Source: Aquila chrysaetos chrysaetos
Taxonomy: Eukaryota; Chordata; Aves; Accipitriformes; Accipitridae
DNA: 64,000 bases
Reading direction: 5' to 3'
Assembly (NCBI RefSeq): GCF_900496995.4
Contig: NC_044029.1
Coordinates: forward strand, 10,292,001-10,356,000
A model generated the notes under the pieces. It made no database searches, was not told where the DNA came from, and saw only the letters and a program-made list of their open reading frames with translations. The translations under genes were made by a program, and so were the position numbers. This document shows positions 9,393-54,797 of the stretch, one piece after another (position 1 is the first letter of the stretch; each line of letters starts with the position of its first letter).

Positions 9393-12300
9393 GTAGGATA
9401 CGTGCAACTGTTGAAATACATGTTACCAAAGTGACCTAGTAATTGACTGTGCGCGTGTGTGTTTCAGGTATTCGTGTGTACACTGTAAGAAAATTTAGAC
9501 ATCAGTGGCAGCCCAGAGTCTAGAACCAGTGCTACTTCCCAGGTAACAATCATAATGGAAAATTTCAACCTTTATGCTGCTTCTGTAGCTTAAGAAAAGA
9601 GAATGATTTTATGGAATTTGATGCTTTTTGAAAAGTTGCTTTGCAAAAGCAAATCTACTGGTTCATTCTGTAGAAGTCTGCCTGCGACAACCAATATTTT
9701 AATGGACTGTTTTCCCATACAGCTTATTCAGAGAGGACACAATGATTTGGGAGATAGAAACTAAACAGTCAAAATTCTACTTTTAACTAATGGGAACTGT
9801 AGGTACTCAGCAAGTGGTAAGGATGAACAGTGACAAAAATGGCCTGATCAAGAGACTCCACACCCAAATGCAAGCCCATTTTTTCTGATGCATTACCTGT
9901 TATAATAAAATATATTGTCTCTTCGTCCATGTGGACCTGCCTCTCTCATATCCTTAGACCATGACAGCTACATTACTGCTACTACTAAAATGATAATTTT
10001 CTAAGGAAATTCACACAACCATGAAAGAACCCATTCTATGTGCCACTATGAAATATGCTCTGTATTTTCATAACATACACAAAGATAGATGCTTCCAAAC
10101 AGAGAGATCCACCATGGCTTTCTTTTTCCCATTATCATTTTGTACTCAACACTATCTTCTGGGTGGTATAGCAGATATTATGCAAAACAGGTAAACCTGC
10201 AAAAGCCATAAATCTTTTTTAGACATATTTCTTTATGGTCCCACTCCCGTGAAGTTAGTGACAAAACTCCCTGAAATCCTAACGGAACTAAGCTCTTACC
10301 ATTATGTATTTAAGTTAAGACATTTTAATTTAAAGCTGTATCAGAAGATGAAGGTTGGGAGTGTGTTACAAAATGATTTCTACAGTATTTTAGATAAGCA
10401 AGCTGTATAGTAGCCAGCAAATAACCTAATATACACTAAATTGCAGTGTATTTTCCTTACTAAATAGAACATTCTTTTCTGTAGGCTGTTCTTCTGATTT
10501 TAACCTTCTTCTAACTGAAAGTTAATGGACAATGTAAATTTGTAAGGTCTATCGTTCTATGTAGAGAAATGTGTATATGAAATCCTGATTTGTCTACACT
10601 GCAGGTAAACATAGAAATTACTGCTATGTTGTATATAGTAAATGGGGAGAAATCCAATTAGTGTTTGCCATTCTCATTTCTTATTCATATAGAACAGCAG
10701 GGTTACAGAGCAATGTTTCAATATCGCAATATTTCCTGGTTATTTCTGGGCTGTCTGCATTGCATTCTCCTAGTGCATTCATGTCTGACATAAAATGTAT
10801 GCATGATGACAAGGTCTGCATGTGCAAAAACATGTAACTGAGAATGATCCATTATGTCACATCATCCACTAGCTTCTATTAAGCACAAGCGTTATTAGGA
10901 TGCTCAAAGAACACTAGCGTAATGCAGAATTTTCGAGCAGTTTGGACTACAAACGCTGAAAAGGATAAAAGATTTTCTTAATGTTTATTTAATGATTAAC
11001 TAAGATCTGTAAGTAGGAAAATACTTGTAGTAAAAAGTGAAGTATGAGATGTAATATTTTTCTGGATGCAAGCTTTACAGTTTGTTACTTTTTTTTTTTT
11101 GCTAGAGTAAGATTAACAATATGGGATTTTTCTAATTGATTTATAAATCCATTGTCTTGAGATTTAATTTTTCAATAAAAGTTTTGATCCAATTATTTTA
11201 TAAAAACTCATATTCCTGTTTCAGGAGTTATTTAGTTTGCAAGATTTCATAAAGATTATAAACTAAACTTTTTAAAATAAGAATATCCTTTTAGGATTTT
11301 TTCTGTGTCCAAAGAATAAAATAAATAATTCTGTACCTCTGAAAGCAGAGCAAAGTTAACAATTCAGTTCATCCACTTTATTTCAATTAGGAACACAGTA
11401 GAGATCACATTCTCTTATTCCACAGTAATAAATTTTCTCCCTGTGAAAAGGCAATGAAGAAACGCACTAGTGATCATAAGTGTTCACCACCACGCAGTCA
11501 GGCTTCCCGGTGCCTACTTCTGGCTCTGCTGCTAACTTTCTGCGTTATCTTTTGACAAGTCACCTAAACTCTCTATTCCTCTGCTTATTCCTTTATTTCA
11601 AAAGCATTAGCATGGAACTTAATATTTTTAAAATGCTTTCAGATAATCAGAAAAAGAGTAACATACTAAAATGTTTTCACAGGAGTGAATTCTTCCTGCA
11701 GATGAACAACAGAGTGTATATCAGTGTTCTCCCCGCATAGCCAAATCACTCATTTTTTTCTTCCAGGCAACAGTTGCTGCTTTTGCTGCAAGCGAAGGCC
11801 ATTCACACCCACGAGTGGTGGAGCTGCCAAAGACTGATGAAGGCCTGGGCTTTAATGTCATGGGAGGAAAGGAACAAAATTCACCTATTTATATTTCTCG
11901 CATCATTCCTGGAGGAGTGGCAGAAAGGCATGGAGGGCTCAAACGGGGGGACCAGCTGCTTTCAGTTAATGGAGTGGTATGTGGAAATTTGATAGAGCTT
12001 TCATTTTCATCTGGATTTTCATTTTTCACAGCTGTTATAATACCATGATTTAAAATGCAGCCACATAAAACAAAAAGAATTAGCTCTGTGAGAGACCTCT
12101 ATTGTGTATTTGTGGTGTAGTGAGGCAAGGCTGCATCGACAGCTTTGTGCCACTACAATTTCTGTTGTAGTGGAGCGCTTGAAGAGCTTAATTTCAAATC
12201 CATACCACATGCTTAATTTCCAAGGAAGCTATGTCTTTGTAATTGATAATTCTGCAAATTCCTTTTACAGTAAAAGCATAATAACAGACTTTGTTGTCCT

Positions 12301-15300: not shown

Positions 15301-17910
15301 GAAGTATTAAAGTACACCATCTTGTTACTCCCCTACAGAACAGATACAATCACAGTTGCTTATTGGTGTCAGTTAGAACATCCAACTCTTTGAAAGCAAA
15401 TGAATATTTTAGCTACTTCATGTAGCTTGGGCAATTACAATTTTTGTTCATAGCCTGTTCTAAGTTCATACTGTTCCACAGCAAAACTAATCACGGCAAC
15501 ACTGAATACACTATTGTTTCCTCTGGATGTCCATGCCACGTCATACTGACCACGATTCACAAACAAAAAATGAAATATAAAACAATGCCAAATTTTATAC
15601 AGTTCCTCTTAAGGTGAGAACTCTGTTTACAAAAGCCAGTATCAAAGCCAGTCACAAAGCAATGAGTTATAAAAGATAGTTACAGTATTTGTTAGGTATG
15701 ATTGCCTATAACATTGAGGAGTTATGGGATAGGGGACTTGGGGAAGAGGTTTTAATTTGTATCTGTGATCTGTTCATTAAAGCAATTTCATAAAACACCC
15801 TGTGCATCTGTAGCTTTTTATTTTAGCTCTGGAGCATTAGACACATTCACTGTTTCTTACGCAACAACAATTTCCTCTTTTTCAAATATTTGTAAGGAAA
15901 CACTTTTCTTCTCCAAATTACTTTTGGGTAGCAGTGCTTGTTCAATAGATTTATCCCAATCACAATTTCTGACAAATCTGGTCATCACAGATCATGAGTT
16001 TTCTTTAAGATCTTTGAATAGGAGACCTACTGGAGGAATTTCATAAACATACAGTTCAAAAACAAAAAGTCATTTATTTCAACAATCAAATGTATGTTTA
16101 CTTCGAGGTTTTCTCTGTTTCTGGTAATCATTTCCGCACCTGAAATGACATTCATTATTTCTCTAACTTGCATTAATATTTTCAAAGCTTATTAACATTT
16201 CTGTAGAAACTCTTGAGTCCAGTCAGTTGACCCAGACATGAAATAATTATTTGTGTTGATATCTTGAAGGATATTTAATGGAAGGAAGATAAATAGCAAG
16301 GCAATAAGCTTGAATTGTGTTGTTTATATTATTTATGTAGAAGTGTATTGTGTCTGCTTTTTGAAACTTTTAAATCATTATTTCTAGCTCATAGTGTGCC
16401 ACAGTAGAAGTAATTCTTATTCACTGTTCTTGCACAATGCTACTCAGTCAAATAGGAGAGATGAAAATAGAAAGAATTTTCTTCTGACAGTTGCTATAAT
16501 GATGCTAAGTTATTCTTTTAGCATGAATTGAACTTCAAATATTTTGAATGCTGCTGCTTCTCTTTGGAAGCCTACGGGTATAGTTTCATTTTAAATGGCA
16601 TGGTATACATAAGAGTTTTAAACCACAGCGTGTAGTAAAACTTGAGTTACTTTATGTGGGAAGAAAATTACTTATTTTTAAATGGTCTAAAATCCCTGTG
16701 AAGATCTCAGGTGTGCAGGCTTTTTTCTTCTGTGCAGAGATACATTTGTTTATTGGAATATAGCCTACAACACACGTGTGCAATCATACACCATTAGAAA
16801 ATTTCTTCCTTTCTCTTAAGGTGTGGAACAATCCACATGCCTGAAAAGCACTCTGGTCAGTCCACTTAACGGTAGAAATTAAATACTCTTTTCACCTCCC
16901 CCTTTTGGAAATTTACTGTTTCAAACAATGCTAGCATAGAAATCAGAGCTTGAGCCCCTTTGGGAATACTTCTGACTTAACAGCAGATATCATCTTACTA
17001 TAAAACATTTTGCAGAAAAGGAGGGAAAATATATATTCCTTCAGCAAGAACTTGCAGTGTTTCAGTTGTCAGTGTTTGATTGCTTACAACAAACCAGATA
17101 ACGACTAGTTTATTTCCAGTAGAGAACCCATGTCGCATGAATGTTAACTGTGTGAGCAATGCCATTAACTCTCTAAGACGCGGGTTGTCCCCGGGAGCAG
17201 CGGGCATGCTCCTTCGCCTGCAGCTCAGCGCCTGCTTAATCACCGCATGTCGTTCCCTGCGGGATCCAAGCAGGGCCAGGGCGTAAGAAAGGAATTGCCA
17301 TTTCAAACTTGCAATTTCTTCATTACTTACCCACATTTAAATAGGATTTTATTTTTGTACCTTGCAAACAGTTCGTTTGGGTTTTTACTGAGGGATTTGG
17401 GGTTTTTTAACATTGGTTTTGTTTGCATAAATCTCATTGAGTATTTCCCCTCCTTTTCACACAGATCAGAAATCAGGTTTGTAGTGCAACCTAAAACAGA
17501 TTAGGGTTGTTTAAAATAAGAAGATGAATACGTACCCAGCAGCGCATAAATCTTAACACTTTCCCTTGATGGCCCCTTGAAAAATGTAAGGTGCAGAGAC
17601 TTCCTAAAACCCCGACAGCCTTTCTGTATGAAAAAGGGGACAGAGCTCTAGATCGAAGCAGCTTTACCGTTATTAAATCTGTTCTCCCTGCTCCCAGAGC
17701 GTGGAAGGAGAACACCACGAGAAGGCGGTGGAGCTGCTGAAGGCGGCCAAGGACAGCGTCAAGCTGGTGGTACGCTACACTCCCAAGGTGCTGGAGGAGA
17801 TGGAGGCTCGCTTCGAAAAACTGAGGACAGCCCGGCGCCGGCAACAGCAGCAATTGCTCATTCAGCAGCAGCAACAGCAGCAAACCACACAGCAAAACCA
17901 TATGTCGTAG
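9321..17910 (+). CDS. LIN7A: LIN7A, C-terminal coding part (three exons)
   Basis: This is a small scaffold protein of cell junctions and synapses. It pairs through L27 domains with CASK/MPP-type proteins and binds receptor and channel C-termini through its PDZ domain. Spliced exons 9321-9392, 11767-11976 and 17698-17910 give 164 residues in one frame, all junctions in phase 0 with AG/GT borders. They encode the end of the L27 domain ([13 protein letters not shown]), a linker, the PDZ domain with the ligand-binding loop GLGF, and a charged coiled tail ending in glutamines and QQNHMS. Human LIN7A has 233 residues, so about 67 N-terminal residues (most of L27) are encoded upstream of the window. 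The Gln-rich tail and NHMS end fit LIN7A better than LIN7B or LIN7C. The gene points towards MYF5, which is on the opposite strand, matching the known LIN7A-MYF5-MYF6 order. Confidence 0.95.
9393..11766 (+). other. LIN7A intron between L27 and PDZ exons
   Basis: Starts GTAGGA and ends TTCCAG. AT-rich, no coding signal. A possible MIR-like SINE remnant lies near 11.5-11.6 kb. Nothing else was recognised. Confidence 0.8.
11525..11600 (+). mobile_element. Possible MIR-like relic in LIN7A intron
   Basis: GCTAACTTTCTGCGTTATC, then TTTTGACAAGTCACCTAAAC, then TCTCTATTCC, resembles the MIR core more weakly than the 56.4 kb copy. Confidence 0.35.
11767..11976 (+). CDS. LIN7A: LIN7A exon: linker and most of the PDZ domain
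   Basis: A 210-nt exon of 70 codons lies between TTCCAG and GTATGT. It starts [20 protein letters not shown] and carries the PDZ start [13 protein letters not shown], where GLGF is the carboxylate-binding loop. It ends [11 protein letters not shown] in the middle of the PDZ fold. An overlapping + frame that begins at 11815 and reads past the donor is only the same exon running into intron. Confidence 0.95.
11977..17697 (+). other. LIN7A intron within the PDZ coding region
   Basis: Starts GTATGT and ends CTCCCAG. Mostly AT-rich with no recognisable exon or ncRNA. GC content rises sharply at about 17.17-17.29 kb, just before the last coding exon. Confidence 0.8.
17698..17910 (+). CDS. LIN7A: LIN7A last coding exon: PDZ end and Gln-rich tail
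   Basis: This 213-nt exon follows CTCCCAG and starts [19 protein letters not shown]. It completes the PDZ domain (helix B, then VKLVVRYTP) and adds the basic tail [19 protein letters not shown], a Q/L-rich stretch and NHMS, then TAG. Codons are GC-rich (GTG, CTG, AAG, GCG), unlike the AT-rich codons of the two upstream exons. The TAG is followed at once by GTGAGAGG, a good splice donor, so the stop codon forms the last three bases of the exon. Confidence 0.95.
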
Positions 17911-29889: not shown

Positions 29890-30870
29890 TTGAAGAATTT
29901 CTTTTACGTGAATTTTTCTAGGGGCTTCTTGAAGCCAGTGTTTTCAGCAACCACCCACCCATACTGCAGCAGAGTTTCACAGTTTACCTACACATGGTGC
30001 AAAGAACCCTTTTGTTTTGAACTGACTTTTTTTTTTAATTAACTAATTTGGTGCCCTCTGGTTGCTCTACCGGGGCAGACATTAAACAATCATTCCCTCG
30101 CCACTCATGGGCTTTTATCACACCCTTACCTTTTCTCTAGGTCTTTTAATAAAGAACTGCATCTTCCTTGAGTCATCAGTCTTCTGATGTTGGATAAATG
30201 GTAAGAATTAAAAATAAAACAGAAGTCCTAGGTTATTCTGCAACATACATTCCTTGTAGAGAAGCCATTTGGGAATTTTTGACCACATTTGTTGCCTTGC
30301 CATGAATCTTTTCCTATTCTGCTAAATAAGTCTTCAGATGGGAGTACCAGAGGAGCCTGTACAGTGTGAGGGCACACTGAGATTTGTATGATAGCATAGT
30401 GGTATTTTCTGATTGCTCATTATCTCTTTCTCTAGAACACCTAATACCATTTATTATAACTCTCAGATCTCTTTCCTGAGTGGCAATTGGTAAGATAACC
30501 CAAATTTTATATGTGAAGTTAGCAGTGGTTTTCCCCATGTGCATCATTTTACATTTATCAAAGCTGACTTTCATTTGCCATTTTAACAGCCAGTCACTGA
30601 GTGCCATTAAGTCCTTTTGCAGTTCTTACAGTCTTGATTTATTATTTATTATTTACTACCCTGATTTGTTAACATCAATAAACTTTTTCTCCTTTCCAGT
30701 CACATCTTTTTCCAATCACTTACAAATGTTACACAGTGCAGATCCCTGCAGAACTTCACTAGTGACTCCACTGCAAAAACTAACTTTTTACTTCAACCTC
30801 ATCTTTTCTAACTTTTCTCCAATTATTTATCCAAGCAAAAGGAATGACAGGATTCCTATACAATTTTGAT
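29890..30870 (-). mobile_element. Ancient CR1/L3-type LINE relic (about 1 kb)
   Basis: Read on the minus strand, this interval resembles the 3' half of an old amniote LINE: the end of the reverse transcriptase frame and then a long 3' untranslated tail. Landmarks on the + strand include AATTTGGTGCCCTCTGGTTG, CAGATCTCTTTCCTGAGTGG, TTTCATTTGCCATTTTAACA and CCCTGCAGAACTTCACTAGT. I recognise these from a LINE family common in turtles and crocodilians, but cannot name the subfamily. The ends are approximate. The copy is heavily mutated and cannot be active. Confidence 0.75.
30314..30607 (-). pseudogene. Decayed LINE reverse transcriptase fragment
   Basis: A minus-strand frame of 97 residues reads ALSDWLLKWQMKVSFDKCKM then MHMGK, followed by ATQERDLRVIING. 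This matches the conserved thumb-side region of jockey/CR1-type LINE reverse transcriptases (pattern L.DWA.KWQMKF..DKCKVMHIG, then E.DLGVII). Only this short stretch is open. The catalytic YxDD region would lie upstream on the minus strand, towards higher coordinates, and is not recognisable. It is a fossil within the larger relic, not a gene. Confidence 0.8.
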
Positions 30871-45536: not shown

Positions 45537-45542
45537 TTTATT
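45537..45542 (-). terminator. MYF5 polyadenylation signal
   Basis: AATAAA on the minus strand, 286 bases past the stop codon, in the context GCGAATAAAACGTGC. It implies a short 3' UTR of about 300 nt that includes G/C homopolymer runs at 45600-45616 and 45640-45780. Confidence 0.7.
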
Positions 45543-45827
45543 CGCAGCGGGGTTTCCAGGGTAGCCCGTGTGTCCCGAGCCCCAGGGTCACTCTGCCCCG
45601 GGGGGGGGGGGGGGGGACACGGACGGACCCCGGGCCAGGGCACTTTGCCCCCCCCCCAGCCCCGGAGGGAGGAGGCGGGCCAAGCAGCGCAGGGGCTGCC
45701 CCTTTTGCCCGTAGAAGCGGCTGGGCGAGGGGTGGGGGCGGCCCCGGGAAGTTTTTTTTTTTTTGGGGGGGGGGGGGGAGAAAAGCAACGACAAGGCTCG
45801 GGGTACCGGTCCCCCCCCCGGACCCCC

Positions 45828-46022
45828 TCATAGCGCCTGGTAGGTCCGTCGGGGCGGCGGCGTCCCGGGCGTCCCCGGCCCCGAGTCGATGCTGGCGCTG
45901 GGCGAGAGGGATTCGGCGTCGCGGGGGGGGCAGCCCCGGTTCCTCGGCCGGGGAGAGCCGGTCCACGATGCTGGAGAGGCAATCCAGGCTGGACAGGGCG
46001 CTGCTCTGCTCGGCGGCATACC
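45828..46022 (-). CDS. MYF5: MYF5 exon 3 coding part, with homopolymer frameshift
   Basis: Acceptor GCCGCAG at 46023-46029. It reads [20 protein letters not shown] then [11 protein letters not shown] in the frame set by exon 2. At the eight-C tract (45923-45930) the conserved continuation [18 protein letters not shown] ... RRTYQAL, TGA, lies one frame over. Seven Cs would keep it in frame. Followed literally, translation runs on to a TAA at 45538-45540 inside the polyadenylation signal. A sequencing or assembly slip is the simplest cause. Confidence 0.9.
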   Translation of the reverse strand, partial: GMPPSRAAPCPAWIASPASWTGSPRPRNRGCPPRDAESLSPSASIDSGPGTPGTPPPRRTYQAL

Positions 46023-47241
46023 CTGCGGCCGGGCGGGGGGGGGGGGGGGGGGTGGTGAAAGATGATGAGAACGGCAACGCGTTACAGCGGGAGACCCCCC
46101 CACACCCGGCCCCCGTTTCCGCCCCCCCCCGGCACACCGCGGCTGCCGGCGGGTCGGCCTTACCGTGGGCCATCCCGGAGCAGTAGACGGCGTCGAAGCT
46201 GCTGCCTCTCGCCGACCAGACGGGGCTGCCGCAGTCGGCCTGCAAGACAGCGAGGGGCGAGTGCCGGCCCGGCCGCCCCCACCACGGGGCTATTGGGACG
46301 CTCCCCCCCCCCCCCCCAAAAAAAAAACCAAAAAAAAAACCAAAAAACGCGGAGGGACAGCGCCTTAAAGCGAGGAGGGAGCCCGCTGGGCAGCGCCTTC
46401 CCCGTCCCCCCCCGCCTTACCCCGCGCTAAGCTGGGGGGGGGGGGGGGAAGAAGACGAGCCCCCGGGGGCTCGGGGAGCTTGGTGGGTGCCCTCCGGCAG
46501 CGTTCCCGTCCCCCCCCCCATGCGTTCCCGCAGAGCCCACGTGTATGCTGAGCGTTCGAGGTGAGAAGGGGCTTGTCTCGTTTCCACGCGAACCGTCCGC
46601 CTTTTCCTGATGTCCGGCTGCGTTCGGCCCGTCCCACGCCCGTGGGAGCGGTGCCACGCCGCCGGGCCGAGGGGGACCTCCCCGCGGGCCTTCCTGGGGT
46701 CCCCACGGCCCCATGGCTCCTGCCCCTCTCTTACCATCCCGTCGGAGCAGCTGGAAGTGGGGCTGGTCGGTTCGGAGCAGCTCTGTCCCGGCAGGTGGTA
46801 GTAGTTTTCTACCTGTTCCCTCAAGAGCTCCTGGAGGCTCTCGATGTATCTGATGGCGTTTCTCAGGATCTCCACTTTGGGGAGTCTTTGGTTGGGGTTG
46901 GCGGTGGTGCATCTCTTCAGGGTCTCAAAAGCCTGGTTCACTTTCTTCAGCCTCCTCCTCTCCCTCATGGTGGCCGCCTTCCGCCGGTCCATTGTGGTGG
47001 ATTTTCTCTTGCAGGCTTTGCAAGCCCACATGAGGCAGTGGCCGGCCTGGTGGTGGCCAGTGGGAGCTCGGACGTGCTCCTCTTCCTCGGAGCAGGCGGG
47101 CTCGGGGGGGTCGTGGGCGCCGAAGGGAGGCAGGTCCCGGGGCTCAAAATCCTCGGGGAACTCGCCCTCCGGGGAGGAGAGGCAGGAGCTGTCATAGAAG
47201 AGCTCGGACGGGGAGAACTGGCAGCTGTCCATCACCTCCAT
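45828..47241 (-). CDS. MYF5: MYF5, myogenic bHLH factor (three exons, apparent 1-base frameshift in exon 3)
   Basis: This nuclear transcription factor starts skeletal muscle commitment. It pairs with E proteins and binds CANNTG E-boxes. Exons are 46735-47241, 46164-46239 and 45828-46022 (minus). The start [11 protein letters not shown] is the vertebrate MYF5 start. Residues about 66-80 form the His/Cys-rich [13 protein letters not shown] motif with the Pbx-contact Trp. The basic region is at 86-100 ([15 protein letters not shown], with the myogenic Ala-Thr) and helix-loop-helix at 101-140. Exon 3 encodes helix III ([14 protein letters not shown]) and ends RRTYQAL. With one C removed from the C8 tract at 45923-45930 the product is 258 residues (human 255). 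As written, exon 3 leaves frame there. It lies tandem with MYF6, about 6 kb away. Confidence 0.96.
46164..46239 (-). CDS. MYF5: MYF5 exon 2
   Basis: A 76-nt exon after CTGTCTTGCAG and before GTAAGGCC. It reads [20 protein letters not shown] then SGMAH plus one base. The 76-nt length equals the human exon. The split Gly codon is completed by exon 3. Confidence 0.94.
46735..47241 (-). CDS. MYF5: MYF5 exon 1 coding part
   Basis: 169 codons from ATG at 47241 to ATG at 46735-46737, then donor GTAAGAGA. It encodes the activation region, the His/Cys motif and the whole bHLH, ending [13 protein letters not shown]. The start is chosen by family match (MEVMDSC). The frame is open further upstream only to a TTG at 47316, which is not a start codon in the mRNA context. 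Confidence 0.97.
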
Positions 47242-52693: not shown

Positions 52694-52781
52694 CCCACCC
52701 GTGCCCGCCCGGGCACCCACCCGTGCCTGCCCGGCTTCCCACCCGTGCCCGCCCGGGCACCCACCCGTGCCTGCCCGGCTT
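52694..52781 (+). repeat. Minisatellite, 44-bp unit x2 (22-bp half-units x4)
   Basis: Two perfect 44-bp copies at 52694-52737 and 52738-52781. Each is made of two 22-bp half-units that begin CCCACCCGTGCC and differ at the end (CGCCCGGGCA or TGCCCGGCTT). Frames through it give repeating Pro/Arg/Thr text, not a protein. Confidence 0.92.
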
Positions 52782-53051
52782 CCCCGGGAGCCAACAACGG
52801 GGGAGGCGGGTGATGAACACCGCCGGTGCGGCCCTAGGTAAGGAGAGACGCTCCTCAGAGGAGAAAACGAAGGGAAAAAAAAAAATCTGTCCCGAGTGCT
52901 GCCTCCCAGTCACACGGGCCGTGGCGTGTCGCGGCTACACACGTCTGGCTCTTCAGGGCTTGGTCTCGCTGAAGTCGGTGGCGGGTTTTAACTCCGGGGT
53001 CGGGTTATTAGTTAATTACGAGGGGTTGGGAAACACTGTAACACAAAGAGC

Positions 53052-53334: not shown

Positions 53335-53576
53335 TATGCAACACAATTTAAAGAAAACAAAACCCGGGAGGGGGGAAAGGAGGAAAGAAATTGGGGGAAA
53401 GTCTGTTTGGCTCCAGACAGCGAGAGCCGTTTTCTGTGGGGTAGGTGTACCTTGCCTCGACCTTACCAAGGCCCCTGCCTGGGCTTTCCACCGTGTTAAT
53501 TGGCTTCATTAGTTAGTTTAGAGGGAAGGGGGTGGGGGCTCCGTCTCCGTTAAGCACACTACCAGCGCAACCGGCT

Positions 53577-54797
<1,221 letters not shown>

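Follow-up and report, generated by a model that had tools for sequence, protein, structure and literature searches.

The MYF5 gene in a 64,000-nt stretch of the Aquila chrysaetos chrysaetos assembly (contig NC_044029.1, positions 10,292,001 to 10,356,000; hereafter the window, whose own coordinates are used throughout) loses its frame in exon 3 where eight Cs stand in a row (C8), one more than the frame allows, and the excess is most likely a homopolymer-length consensus error of the assembly. The consensus would have overcounted the run by one, so breaking the frame in exon 3, and the true product is most likely a normal MYF5 of 258 residues. We infer that the extra base was introduced during sequencing or assembly and is absent from the animal itself, and what is described here is most likely an ordinary annotation-level frameshift in a homopolymer run, not a discovery.

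The C8 tract and the MYF5 reading frames

MYF5 was read on the minus strand as three exons, with canonical donors and acceptors throughout and all splice sites intact. The parts of the gene that matter here are as follows.

46735 to 47241, minus strand: MYF5 exon 1 (507 nt), with the ATG, the basic and HLH domains and donor GTAAGAG; Pfam Basic E 4.6e-24, HLH E 3.3e-15, Myf5 E 3.5e-07
46164 to 46239, minus strand: MYF5 exon 2 (76 nt), with acceptor TTGCAG and donor GTAAGG; from splice sites and reading frame
45931 to 46022, minus strand: MYF5 exon 3 before the tract, in the frame of exons 1 and 2, including CLSSIVDR; Pfam Myf5 E 3e-06 and a match to the MYF6 exon 3 of the window
45923 to 45930, minus strand: C8 tract (G8 on the plus strand), presumed site of the change in the MYF5 reading frame; run read directly from the sequence
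45828 to 45922, minus strand: C-terminal tail resembling that of MYF5, in the next frame and closed by TGA 45830-45828; from frame reading and alignment to the presumed human tail
45538 to 45827, minus strand: coding only if C8 is literal (then rich in P and G, with TAA 45540-45538), otherwise 3' untranslated region (UTR); from frame reading
45537 to 45542, minus strand: AATAAA motif, likely poly(A) signal, which holds the as-written stop; from motif reading

The identity of the gene was examined with Pfam. Exon 1 contains both the myogenic basic domain (PF01586) and the HLH domain (PF00010), and the Myf5 region (PF12232) was matched on exon 1 (profile positions 1-23) and again on exon 3 (profile positions 52-71). 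When exon 2, intron 2 and exon 3 were read together, two stretches of PF12232 were reported (E 1.1e-11), only the exon 3 stretch having a listed location. MYF6 adjoins the gene upstream on the same strand, which is the typical order of the pair; beyond the Pfam matches, we take the two genes to be MYF5 and MYF6, and CLSSIVDR to be helix III. The lengths of the MYF5 introns, 46023-46163 (141 nt) and 46240-46734 (495 nt), are both divisible by three, and intron 2 is without a stop in the frame of exon 2.

Exon 3 begins at 46022, behind the acceptor GCCGCAG, and the C8 tract within it is the longest single-base run across the six coding exons of MYF5 and MYF6. An uninterrupted MYF5 frame to the usual C-terminus was not found in the assembly, owing to the one-base excess at 45923-45930. 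Joined as written, exons 1-3 stay open for 355 codons up to the TAA at 45540-45538, within AATAAA 45542-45537. Past C8, the MYF5-like tail occupies the next frame and terminates at the TGA at 45830-45828; from the ATG to this TGA there are 507+76+195 = 778 nt, that is, 259 codons plus 1 nt. The frame changes between ...EEPGL and RDAES..., and since no stop codon divides the two frames, the position of the shift can only be inferred, the C8 tract being the simplest place for it. An earlier, sequence-only reading had put a C8 at exactly these positions, a C-terminal tail ending in TGA one frame over, an as-written stop inside AATAAA and a 258-residue protein with one C fewer, and the coordinates and the arithmetic agree with it on each point. 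It had also spoken of a near-nonstop mRNA, which is right as anatomy, the TAA lying inside the poly(A) signal, but is relevant only if C8 is real.

Coding evidence on either side of the tract

The frame before the tract appears well supported. In the frame of exons 1 and 2, residues 3-22 of exon 3 gave the Pfam Myf5 match, the pre-tract protein aligned with exon 3 of the window's MYF6 (stretches of 22 residues were compared), and its codon score was attained by none of 2000 base-shuffles. The earlier claim that this frame is correct up to the tract is thereby borne out.

The frame after the tract seems less well supported by the same tools. Its best support comes from an alignment to the presumed sequence of the human MYF5 C-terminus, so that the comparison is a lead and not a database test. 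The tail frame aligned with it ungapped and end to end, with 16 of 32 residues identical, and none of 2000 shuffles did as well; the values of the as-written frame and of the third frame were reached by 1434 and 387 of the 2000, respectively. Mainly from this comparison, the true C-terminus is probably the tail one frame over, and, because the match runs without a gap to the stop, the shift would be either too young for the tail to have eroded or not real. The tail had been called conserved beforehand: a MYF5-like tail is indeed present one frame over, but the word itself depends on the presumed human sequence.

Codon usage was also considered as support for the tail frame and dropped, as its score is negative and 3' UTR pieces score equally or nearly so. 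After the tract, the codon scores were -11.6 bits for the tail frame, which 57 of 2000 shuffles attained, -26.4 for the as-written frame (1074 of 2000) and -47.0 for the third (1993 of 2000); the third-position guanine-cytosine (GC) contents were, in the same order, 0.90, 0.73 and 0.67. The best frames of three 92-nt 3' UTR pieces, used as a control, scored -2.1, -10.1 and -13.4 bits.

The as-written frame past the tract added no Pfam match at E up to 1, nor at E up to 0.1 in a second scan, and no PDB entry matched the as-written exon 3 at E up to 10. Six C-terminal peptide strings were not found in the literature searched, and searches on MYF5, frameshift, assembly error and birds gave, among the papers listed, no title or abstract start evidently on this tract.

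Origin of the extra base

A tail of MYF5 type in the next frame, undamaged splice sites, a whole MYF6 and a position in a homopolymer run fit an assembly error and a recent mutation alike. According to a preprint (PMC13320880), frameshift errors affect 2.2% of BUSCO genes in Vertebrate Genomes Project (VGP) assemblies and 4.9% in others, a rate high enough for an assembly error to be favoured over a real change. The sequence-only reading, which had named two possibilities, an assembly error and a change of very recent date, is thus supported, with the published rates favouring the former. Our weighing of the explanations is based on the match to the presumed human tail and these rates, not on codon usage. 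The lack of a Pfam match past the tract in the as-written frame, the complete MYF6 frame (242 aa) and the in-frame 7-base runs were also counted for an assembly error, and PMC9516821 describes a rise of false indels with GC content in the earlier assemblies of zebra finch and hummingbird.

The tract is located where C/G runs are common, so both slippage and miscounting are plausible. Between 44500 and 55500, C/G runs of 8 bases or more number 31, compared with 4.9 expected, and those of 14 bases or more number 12, compared with 0.025 expected (longest 18; expectations simulated 40 times under a first-order Markov model), whereas outside this interval the window has 3 and 0 such runs. A C/G run of 8 is ordinary for this 11-kb island; what is unusual is that it breaks a coding frame. 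The only other runs of at least 7 bases in the six MYF5 and MYF6 coding exons are two 7-base C/G runs (47104 and 54230), both in frame. The 2-kb bin that holds the tract has a GC content of 0.532, and a neighbouring bin, at 0.648, is the richest in the window.

Several observations weigh against an assembly error or against the tail on which it depends. The codon score of the tail is no better than those of the 3' UTR pieces, and the tail frame gave no Pfam match at E up to 1; the Pfam Myf5 profile ends at position 71, which was matched before the tract, and hence stops short of the tail. The false indels of PMC9516821 were mostly near gene starts and in Sanger/Illumina assemblies, whereas C8 lies in the last exon. 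The abundance of very long C/G runs at the locus may itself mean real slippage.

The main rival to an assembly error, though an unlikely one, is that slippage really did add one base in the sequenced animal, probably in heterozygous state or as a recent allele of low frequency. Such a mutation would yield a protein of 355 residues in which the basic helix-loop-helix (bHLH) domain and helix III are kept and the last 31 residues give way to 128 different ones, its stop codon lying inside AATAAA. The excess of C/G runs makes slippage plausible, and both the bHLH domain and CLSSIVDR precede the tract. PMC7530293 and PMC5852603 describe helix III as a key C-terminal element of these factors; as it would be kept, the mutation need not be lethal, and a carrier might be viable. 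In PMC11202668, however, a homozygous exon 3 frameshift of human MYF5 is reported with disease, and the tail here bears no mark of decay when set against the presumed human tail.

The remaining explanations are far less probable. If C8 were fixed in the species, the standard tail could still be made by programmed +1 ribosomal frameshifting or polymerase slippage, which we regard as very improbable: the tail frame appears maintained in the comparison with the presumed human tail and CCC-C is a shift-prone proline context, but the 118-nt RNA reaching from immediately upstream of the tract as far as the TGA is less stable than its shuffles (z +1.90; 196 of 200 at least as stable), and no stimulatory downstream structure was found in this 118-nt fold. 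Some +1 frameshift sites need no stimulatory structure. Just as improbable is a C8 that is real and common in the species, with slippage giving two MYF5 C-termini, the standard tail and a long extension rich in P and G with its stop in the poly(A) signal. There is equally little chance that a splice variant restores the frame and makes C8 harmless; nothing was found in favour of one, no systematic splice-site scan having been run. The pre-tract frame is that of MYF5 by Pfam and by the MYF6 comparison, so an acceptor in another frame would discard that stretch, and retention of intron 2 keeps the as-written frame and the same stop (open reading frame 45541-46416).

The significance of a homopolymer error at this position is mainly for annotation. 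Left uncorrected, the extra base could make MYF5 look lost, give it a spurious C-terminal extension of 128 residues or mimic positive selection on it. A genuine C8 would make this muscle-determination gene a natural case of C-terminal frameshift.

Neighbouring features and known systems

MYF6 occupies 54716-53577 on the minus strand, with three exons and a complete frame of 242 aa. Its stop TAA (53579-53577) likewise overlaps an AATAAA (53576-53581), probably by coincidence. In MYF6 intron 1, at 54117-54147, the hexamer GGACAC occurs in 5.2 perfect copies, and a minisatellite at 52694-52784, between MYF5 and MYF6, has a 44-bp unit made of two 22-bp halves. Elsewhere in the window, a weak reverse-transcriptase match (PF00078, E 0.015, below the cutoff) at 30317-30625 on the minus strand resembles an old long interspersed nuclear element (LINE) fragment, presumably CR1-like. 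On the plus strand, 11689-12045 has a PDZ exon within an open stretch (PF00595, E 4e-14), and 17677-17907 is an open stretch whose end follows a glutamine-rich run and which matched no family above the cutoff; we take both to belong to LIN7A.

The exon 1 protein was compared with two collections only, genome_contigs and viral_contigs, where it gave 32 and 10 pattern matches, respectively; none proved to be a relative, which is unsurprising given that these collections hold prokaryote and viral DNA. A scan of the window with Rfam at gathering thresholds gave no match, and a scan for bacterial promoters and terminators has no meaning for MYF5. In the great bustard, MYF5 is reported to be under positive selection, in a polished assembly based on Oxford Nanopore Technologies (ONT) reads (PMC10354230); no link to a C-run is drawn here.

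The closest known systems are assembly errors and one human variant. The frameshift errors surveyed in PMC13320880 and PMC9516821 are alike in that a small indel breaks an otherwise intact gene in GC-rich sequence. They differ in that the surveys drew on reads or second assemblies, whereas the MYF5 case is known from one assembly, and in that the errors of PMC9516821 were concentrated near gene starts, whereas this C8 is in the last exon. The human MYF5 variant c.596dupA, p.(Asn199Lysfs*49) (PMC11202668), is likewise a one-base excess in exon 3 that alters the C-terminus, but targeted sequencing has confirmed it and it is linked with disease. Moreover, the human shift falls at residue 199 and the frame ends after 49 codons, whereas the shift in the eagle assembly falls near residue 228 and the product would be longer than normal.
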